This document shows positions 560 through 970 of a DNA stretch of 51,020 nucleotides, in pieces. The notes beneath the pieces are model-generated. The model was not told the DNA's origin and made no database searches. It saw only the letters and a list, made by a program, of their open reading frames with translations. The translations under genes were made by a program, and so were the position numbers. The DNA is from Clostridia bacterium (GTDB lineage: Bacteria > Bacillota > Clostridia > Oscillospirales > CAG-272). Position 1 is the stretch's first letter; each line of letters opens with the position of its first letter. The stretch is taken from contig JAFVZL010000024.1 of NCBI GenBank assembly GCA_017508195.1, positions 1 through 51,020 of the forward strand. Reading direction: 5' to 3'.

Positions 560-588
560 TTGACAAAATGAATCAGATAATATATAAT
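560..588 (+). promoter_or_regulatory. Consensus sigma-A promoter of the toxin-like module
   Basis: TTGACA (560-565), a 17-base spacer and TATAAT (583-588) match the housekeeping consensus exactly. The expected transcription start is about 595, where the sequence reads GTGGAAAC. This places a roughly 160-base structured leader before the small peptide at 755. Confidence 0.8.
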
Positions 589-705
589 TAAGCCGTGGAA
601 ACTCACCGTCAAACGCAAATTTCATTATTTGACGGCTTGATGGTAAAAAAGATGGTTGCCTCCGCAATATCTATCCCGCATGTGTGGGGTGAGAAGGGAG
701 GATTC

Positions 706-752
706 TGTGGTAGCCCCTCGTGCGGGAAATTCGTTTTCCGAGGAGGACCACA
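706..752 (+). promoter_or_regulatory. Stem-loop sequestering the Shine-Dalgarno of the small peptide
   Basis: TGTGGT (706-711) pairs with ACCACA (747-752), CC (714-715) with GG (745-746), and CCTCG (716-720) with CGAGG (739-743). Together these form about 13 base pairs with small bulges, with an inner GAAA/TTTC hairpin. The ribosome binding site AGGAGGA (741-747) is entirely inside the stem and the AUG (755) lies just outside. Such occlusion is typical of type I toxin mRNAs; its role here is inferred. Confidence 0.65.
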
Positions 753-754
753 AA

Positions 755-841
755 ATGTTTTCTGCTATTTTGAACATATGTACTATTGTTAGTGCAGTAG
801 TTGGTGTAGCCGCATTTGTGCTATACTTGTTTGATAGATAA
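755..841 (+). CDS. Small hydrophobic peptide, putative type I toxin
   Basis: This 28-residue open frame begins MFSAILN and ends LYLFDR. Its ATG follows the strong ribosome binding site AGGAGGA by seven bases. Nearly the whole peptide forms a single hydrophobic helix (about residues 4-25) with a charged Asp-Arg tail, as in Fst, TxpA and other small membrane-acting toxins. I see no clear sequence match to a named family. The arrangement is that of a type I toxin-antitoxin locus: a consensus promoter, a long structured leader that hides the ribosome binding site, a convergent antisense unit and a shared terminator. Toxicity is an inference. It could instead be a small regulatory or signalling membrane peptide. 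Longer in-frame starts upstream (656) lack a ribosome binding site and are rejected. Confidence 0.6.
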   Translation: MFSAILNICTIVSAVVGVAAFVLYLFDR

Positions 842-934
842 AAAGAAAACTAGCCATCTGTTAGCGGCAGATGGCTAGTTTAGTGAACAAATCACTTAAT
901 TAATCGACTGTGGCAACCATCTTGGGGTTTCCAC
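838..934 (-). ncRNA. Putative antisense RNA (antitoxin) convergent with the small peptide
   Basis: A minus-strand promoter at 941-970 predicts a start at about 934. The hairpin 847-881 followed by a T-rich run on the minus strand predicts an end near 838, giving an RNA of about 95 bases. It would be complementary to the 3' end of the toxin-like transcript, the geometry of RatA/TxpA and SR4/BsrG. Its first bases (GTGGAAAC) are the same as those of the sense RNA. No expression evidence is available from sequence alone. Confidence 0.5.
847..881. terminator. Bidirectional terminator of the toxin-like module
   Basis: Perfect 14-base arms (847-860 and 868-881) surround a 7-base loop. Minus-strand RNA continues into TTCTTTTT, a good terminator tail. 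Plus-strand RNA continues into TAGTGAAC, a weak tail, so sense transcripts may read through to about 934-945 where T-rich sequence follows. Confidence 0.75.
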
Positions 935-940
935 ATTTTT

Positions 941-970
941 ATTTTATCATACATATCACAATTTTGTCAA
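941..970 (-). promoter_or_regulatory. Minus-strand promoter of the antisense RNA
   Basis: On the minus strand TTGACA (970-965) is followed by an 18-base spacer and TAAAAT (946-941). The predicted start is the G at 934. Confidence 0.6.

Follow-up and report, generated by a model that had tools for sequence, protein, structure and literature searches.

A candidate family of type I toxin-antitoxin modules with a predicted end-to-end messenger RNA clamp in Clostridia

The window studied here, that is, the whole stretch of 51,020 nucleotides at positions 1 to 51,020 of contig JAFVZL010000024.1 from a Clostridia bacterium (assembly GCA_017508195.1), carries near its left end a short module, in which two convergent promoters enclose the frame of a small hydrophobic peptide. 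Then, could this arrangement be a toxin-antitoxin module? The first-pass annotation of the window proposed a candidate type I module that was not obviously of a named family. Based on the anatomy of the locus, the recurrence of its layout in other genomes, the co-varying base pairing and the apparent selection on the peptide frame, we consider it probable that the module represents an undescribed type I toxin-antitoxin family.

Anatomy of the locus

The features of the module are listed in Table 1. The sequence features reported in the first-pass annotation are real as a whole and not products of chance. The perfect sense promoter, the convergent promoter with a TG before its -10 box and the 28-residue frame with its ribosome site are all present, and the scores of the two promoters were reached in 0 and 2 of 200 base shuffles, respectively. 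The antisense RNA of about 95 bases follows as a prediction from the positions of its promoter and terminator, and has a folding z-score of -5.6. The hairpin at 847-881, described as a shared terminator, does have its 14 pairs, but the sharing was rejected for the window, where the 10 bases past the hairpin hold 8 T on the minus strand versus 3 on the plus strand. Since the U-run is confined to the minus strand, this hairpin would end the antisense RNA only; the sense RNA probably runs on to the second predicted terminator, which looks the better of the two for that strand.

Table 1. Features of the module in the window. MFE, minimum free energy structure of the predicted sense RNA; helix numbers are those of the alignment described in the text.
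Feature	Positions	Strand	Basis
Sense promoter, TTGACA-17-TATAAT	560-588	+	12/12 consensus match
5' closing arm 1, predicted mRNA start	595-604	+	MFE pairing with 925-934; helix 1
5' leader hairpin, 605-612 with 637-644	605-644	+	MFE
5' closing arm 2 (AAGAUGGUUGCC)	649-660	+	MFE pairing with 912-923; helix 2
Candidate leader start site, GGGAGG and GUG at 707-709	696-709	+	In frame with the peptide
Stem hiding the ribosome site, 706-711 with 747-752 and 716-719 with 743-746	706-752	+	MFE; helices 4 and 5
Ribosome site AGGAGG	741-746	+	Sequence; GGAGG 8 bases upstream of the peptide frame
28-residue hydrophobic peptide frame (putative toxin), ATG to TAA	755-841	+	
Antisense terminator, hairpin 881-847 (14 pairs) and U-run 846-838	838-881	-	Helix 6
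Predicted sense terminator, 909-935 with the 3' closing arms (912-923, 925-934), T-rich 936-945	909-945	+	
Predicted antisense RNA (antitoxin), about 95 bases	934-840	-	Promoter 970-941 and terminator 881-838
Antisense promoter, TTGACA-18-TAAAAT, TG preceding the -10 box	970-941	-	11/12

The predicted sense RNA (595-942) folds closed, its 5' end being paired with its 3' end through helices 1 and 2. The MFE is -137.7 kcal/mol with a z-score of -10.6, and equal stability was reached in 0 of 100 shuffles; the corresponding RNAs of two relatives have z-scores of -6.0 and -6.5.

Relatives of the module and their genomic context

In total, 22 complete modules were identified in 17 genomes, the window included. 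Sixteen of these genomes belong to seven families of the window's class (f1, f36, f40, f42, f43, f55 and f92), and the seventeenth is Clostridiales SIG387, whose family assignment is not part of the count. A module truncated by a contig end (L168) was excluded from every count, and L176 is not in the promoter, U-run, pN/pS or fold scoring. In the layout common to the 21 aligned modules, the 5' and 3' ends are clamped together, the ribosome site is hidden, the frame is hydrophobic, the antisense terminator lies beside the stop codon and a convergent promoter is present. A search for the promoter-leader-peptide-terminator layout in other Clostridia had been suggested as a check; the layout does recur there, and its pairing co-varies.

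Searching 196 family genomes with the peptide produced a list of 22 rows: the window, one true relative (L044, from another genus, with 32% identity and an expectation value (E) of 0.47), which was recognised through a pair of convergent promoters separated by 342 bases, and a further 20 with E values from 0.036 to 0.83, which were screened by the convergent-promoter script only, two of them being also read. Among 69 genus genomes, the DNA search found matches in 14, the window's own included; the 14 non-own rows were fragments, 23 to 42 bases long, of which 12 lay at the promoters, and the script found no convergent promoter pair at these 14 loci. The pattern GTGGNNRCCRTC..., which could not match the window, occurred at 21 places in 395 family genomes, one of them genuine and already known. 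A further pattern, TTTCCACAT..., was found in 74 of 245 order genomes, of which only the window's own was considered. A pattern scan of genome contigs gave 22 hits, of which eight sequences were viewed and the other 14 were judged by title. Two were accepted, namely the SIG387 locus L112, whose full sequence was read as L124, and L113, a second record of the L044 locus (roe deer rectum).

Two leader models were also used. R1, which modelled sequence alone over roughly the first 82 bases of the leader in three copies, gave three further full-length matches (E 3e-5 to 1.2e-4) in 291 class genomes; it matched 185 of these genomes at E <=1, four loci being read and three accepted, and it missed modules later detected by R2 in some of the same genomes. 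R2 was built on six leaders and restricted to the 5' leader. With it, the class yielded 10 matching genomes out of 391, family f42 yielded 8 out of 38, the window's own family 3 out of 196 and f40 1 out of 16; the genome sets overlap, and the counts of 10 and 3 include the window's own genome. Both models included the sense -10 box, which is not independent evidence, whereas the 3' parts are: each complete R2 hit also bears the antisense terminator hairpin and the 3' arms, which lie outside the model. With E values of the leader model down to 1e-28, the family can be annotated.

The spread of the module across genomes is sporadic. It is present once in the window's genome, and 15 of the 17 genomes gave one match each. 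One genome holds six copies, of which one is truncated at a contig end; among them are two tandem pairs (L164 and L165), whose members are 553 and 600 bases apart and encode nearly identical peptides. Among ten flanking frames at nine loci, nine are metabolic or of unknown function, e.g., citrate synthase, AzlC, fructosamine kinase and TP methylase, and the tenth is a phage tail gene adjoining L162. The left and right neighbours of L161 and L174 are alike. The L044 module is bracketed by near-identical hairpins (1261-1296 and 1758-1790 of its locus), which are perhaps insulating terminators.

A phage or plasmid origin was rejected: two patterns from the window and L044, as well as the leader pattern, had no match in viral contigs, and no match was found in plasmids. 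For phages, eight weak hits spanning 7 to 11% of the query were taken as chance, and L127 had no match in phages and plasmids at E 0.01.

As for the surroundings in the window, a repeat with a terminator-like hairpin occurs at 74-460 in two copies 185 bases apart, and partial copies of it end contigs C16, C28 and C34 of the same genome; the repeat may have interrupted the assembly. The downstream gene (1113-1736) encodes 207 residues with an apparent membrane segment and a zinc-ribbon-like end, and its Pfam matches are all below cut-off. It is followed at 2082-26731 by what reads, from the translations, as a large carbohydrate cluster with transporter genes, a LacI-like regulator, a sugar kinase and enzymes resembling glycoside hydrolase family 32 (fructan use).

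Could the module then be a small transposable element, with the inverted closing arms as terminal repeats? The arms do stand at both ends, and repeats adjoin the window's copy. However, both promoters lie outside the arms and are recurrent, a single match was obtained in 15 of the 17 genomes, and L161 and L174 are located between similar flanking genes, all of which makes a transposable element hardly credible.

Co-varying pairs, start codons and the peptide frame

The alignment of the family (A6) comprises 21 modules and 54 pairs in six helices; L176 was found afterwards and is absent from it. In A6, 93.5% of cells are paired, compared with 39.7 to 45.2% when the partners are slid, a control biased in favour of the structure, which was derived from folds of the same sequences. 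Both sides have changed in 20 of the 54 pairs, where shuffles average 7.6, and the covariation score of 0.220 compares with 0.161 after shuffling; none of the 500 shuffles attained any of the five measures, the number of double-changed pairs included. Helices 1 and 2, formed by closing arms 1 and 2, are paired in 98.4 and 95.2% of cells, with double-sided changes in 3 of 9 and 2 of 12 pairs, respectively; taken together, the two long-range helices show such changes in 5 of 21 pairs, and 9 are invariant. The values for helices 4 and 5 (ribosome-site stem) are 86.8 and 86.7% with 9 of 17 pairs double-changed, and for helix 6 (antisense terminator) 98.0% with 5 of 12. Helix 3, the second leader hairpin, is absent from the window's own MFE, and the leader hairpin at 605-644 varies in sequence and length across relatives. 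The MFE of each of the 21 modules contains the two clamp helices and the stop-codon hairpin, and hides the ribosome site, most of which is paired. Freeing the 5' arms would cost 22.9 kcal/mol on average in silico, and consequently the clamp should form.

On the antisense side, the promoter matches the consensus at 10 to 12 of 12 positions in 21 of 21 scored modules (the weakest being L044, p 0.06 by base shuffles), and 7 to 9 of the 10 bases in the U-run are T in all 21. The sense promoter matches at 10 to 12 of 12 in 20 of 21, the failure being L172, in which an apparent 25-base duplication displaces the promoter upstream. The antisense -10 box ends <=18 bases before GTGG in 14 of 21 modules. 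In the other seven (L127, L159, L160, L161, L170, L171 and L174) it is 35 to 40 bases out, with an extra hairpin between it and GTGG. In these seven, therefore, the antisense RNA would start differently from the mRNA, and the end of the sense RNA may lie further downstream.

At the conserved start place, 13 of the 22 modules have ATG, one GTG, five ATT (L126, L161, L162, L174 and L176) and two ATA (L172 and L173), while L128 has no start. Thus AUU or AUA, codons that initiation factor IF3 discriminates against, stand at that place in 7 of 22 modules. In L162, L173 and L176 the hydrophobic stretch has no preceding standard start, and in L126 the first one is a TTG five codons in; for L161, L172 and L174, upstream in-frame standard codons make the AUU/AUA reading less forced. 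Because the ATT members span four families (f1, f36, f42 and f55), sequencing error is unlikely.

A candidate second start site, GGAGG-3-AUG/GUG, immediately precedes the strand hiding the ribosome site. It was counted in 16 of 22 modules, but the hits are biased towards it, since R2 spans the site; the exact form is present in 3 of the 6 copies known before R2 (L044, L126 and L127). It would open a four-codon frame in 10 modules, a start followed by a stop in 4 and longer frames in 2. The window has GGGAGG-5-GUG, with a spacing of 5, in the peptide frame. By analogy with mok for hok, we suggest that the leader site could serve to open the ribosome-site stem.

The frames encode peptides of 28 to 34 residues with a single hydrophobic stretch. 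An Ile/Val/Leu-Cys motif is present in 21 of 22 peptides (all except L124), and a basic C-terminal end in 21 of 22 (all except the window). The codons of the basic tail are, on the opposite strand, the U-run of the antisense terminator, and the stop codon is at the foot of the terminator stem in most relatives. Conservation of the frame, another check that had been proposed, was found in the relatives: the pooled ratio of nonsynonymous to synonymous differences per site (pN/pS) is 0.26 (Sd/S 50.0/348.2, Nd/N 46.0/1253.8) for 18 non-independent pairs in four close groups, the window being outside these groups, and with the start of L172 and L173 set at an internal ATT (the conserved place holds ATA). 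Accordingly, the frame looks to be under purifying selection.

Another explanation is that the two structured RNAs are themselves the product, the peptide being incidental. In line with it, the RNA elements are conserved better than the peptide, the start position is occupied by AUU or AUA in 7 of 22 modules and one module has no standard start, and the window retains the A-run that forms the antisense U-run on the other strand although it lies beyond the peptide frame. Against it stand the low pN/pS, the hydrophobic core with its nearly constant Ile/Val/Leu-Cys motif and the normally spaced ribosome site, and we regard the explanation as very improbable. If the peptide is made, it might also be non-toxic, i.e., a small membrane peptide regulating a membrane partner, whose synthesis is tuned by the antisense RNA. 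For this explanation, the frame looks selected and toxicity is only inferred, the window's genome has a single copy, and nine of the ten flanking frames are ordinary. However, the sporadic presence seen with R2, the differing neighbours, the tandem copies and the layered repression fit a toxin-antitoxin module better, and thus a non-toxic regulator appears unlikely.

Several points weigh against a type I toxin-antitoxin family, or against parts of it. Kinship alone can lift related sequences above the shuffle control without any structure. The mean cost of opening the ribosome site is 7.4 kcal/mol at full length and 8.2 kcal/mol without the 3' arms; removal of these arms does not ease the opening in silico, and a hok-like switch by 3' trimming is not supported. 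It is more likely that the clamp protects the RNA, or shields its 3' target from the antisense RNA until strand exchange. L128 (1513-1864) keeps the RNA layout intact with no in-frame standard start, the ATG there being out of frame. The window's own peptide is without a basic tail, where a 2-base insertion ends the frame early. Among the pN/pS pairs, L170-L171 runs in the opposite direction and L172-L173 has zero change. On its sense side, too, the hairpin is followed by many T in L124 (7 of 10; antisense 8) and in three G999 copies (6 of 10; antisense 7), in which it could act as a two-way terminator. Finally, Pfam, NCBIfam and PHROGs gave no convincing match of the peptide to a known toxin family, PADLOC not being searched.

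Proposed mechanism and comparison with known systems

For a type I toxin-antitoxin family, we propose the following mechanism. The long RNA (~592-945) would be the mRNA of a one-helix membrane peptide, and would be born shut, with its ribosome site in a local stem and two helices clamping its 5' end to its 3' end. The convergent antisense RNA (~934-840) would cover the 3' third of the mRNA; first contact would probably be made via the loop of the hairpin beside the stop codon, followed by pairing along the 3' part, and the duplex would be marked for RNase III. Once the supply of antisense RNA stops, the leftover mRNA could be opened, perhaps by ribosomes starting at the leader site, so that the peptide would be made and enter the membrane. 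Transcription, antisense action, RNase III, leader-site opening and toxicity are what we infer here, the RNase III and kissing-loop steps by analogy.

A more specific version is possible, but doubtful. The family would be an inverted-repeat type I family, in which the 5' end of the mRNA acts as a cis antitoxin and near-identical copies at the 5' end of the antisense RNA act in trans, both competing for the 3' target, and in which the AUU/AUA start in several lineages ties toxin output to the state of initiation. Its odds are lowered by the 7 of 21 modules whose antisense promoter is displaced outward by 35 to 40 bases. Judged from sequence, the inverted repeats, the AUU/AUA starts and the leader start site are unusual features of the family. 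If the AUU/AUA starts and the mimicry of the 5' region hold, the family would control its toxin in an unusual way, and one could test whether the fidelity of initiation is linked to the release of toxin.

Does the module belong to a known family? The first-pass annotation did not recognise the peptide, and no convincing match was found in Rfam, Pfam, NCBIfam or PHROGs either. In Rfam, the window had 0 matches and eight relative loci nothing at threshold except an unrelated tRNA; ten sub-threshold matches (best E 0.0041) were taken as chance. The best weak protein-family match is DUF308 (E 0.0052, below its cut-off). Membership of Hol_Tox (PF16935) was rejected: its cut-off is 23.3 bits, and a single relative among seven reached 9.9 bits (E 0.92), the window peptide being unlisted. 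A literature search found no such family, although the subscription literature was mostly out of reach and a prior description is possible.

The organisation had been likened to TxpA/RatA, BsrG/SR4 and Fst/par. By comparison, a type I layout outside the named families stands, but the analogy with Fst/par fails on two defining features. Convergent promoters, a peptide of ~30 residues and a stem hiding the ribosome site are indeed shared with Fst/par (pAD1 RNA I/RNA II), and contact at the terminator loop, as in Fst/par, is presumed for the present module. However, par has the direct repeats DRa/DRb and a bidirectional terminator, according to the available text of PMC7472228, whereas here the repeats are inverted, the 5' arms pairing with the 3' arms, and the U-run of the window's hairpin is one-sided; membership was rejected. 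The PXXXG motif of Fst is absent from the module peptides, as inspected by eye.

In hok mRNA, too, the 5' end pairs with the 3' end. The module further resembles hok/sok in that its mRNA would be translationally inert and may carry a coupled leader frame, the counterpart of mok (PMC5668327, in the part available). In contrast, the antisense RNA of the module lies over the 3' end, and the ribosome site stays closed in silico once the 3' arms are removed.

The antisense RNAs of TxpA/RatA and BsrG/SR4 in Bacillus subtilis cover the 3' end of the mRNA, similar to the present arrangement. The same likeness holds for YonT/SR6 (available part of PMC5848175), and a small toxin with a charged end is a further trait in common with the B. 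subtilis modules (available part of PMC6563280). Here, unlike in the B. subtilis modules, the mRNA ends are clamped by two co-varying helices and the peptide has 28 to 34 residues; no Pfam or NCBIfam match was found for the peptide, a result of profile searches rather than of a direct comparison with TxpA and BsrG. Several B. subtilis modules are located in prophages, as the same part of PMC6563280 states, whereas a phage gene adjoins one of the nine loci checked here.

The nearest parallels within Clostridia are CD2517.1/RCd8, CD2907.1/RCd9 and CD0956.2/RCd10 of Clostridioides difficile, which are convergent overlapping type I modules. Their toxins are 50 to 53 residues long, within a range of 34 to 59 for the C. 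difficile modules as a whole, and the three modules are located near arrays of clustered regularly interspaced short palindromic repeats (CRISPR), two of them in prophages, as described in the available part of PMC6563280; it is by this description that they are set apart from the present family. According to the same part of this 2019 review (PMC6563280), experimentally validated type I modules of Clostridia were restricted to C. difficile, whereas the candidate family spans seven families of the window's class.
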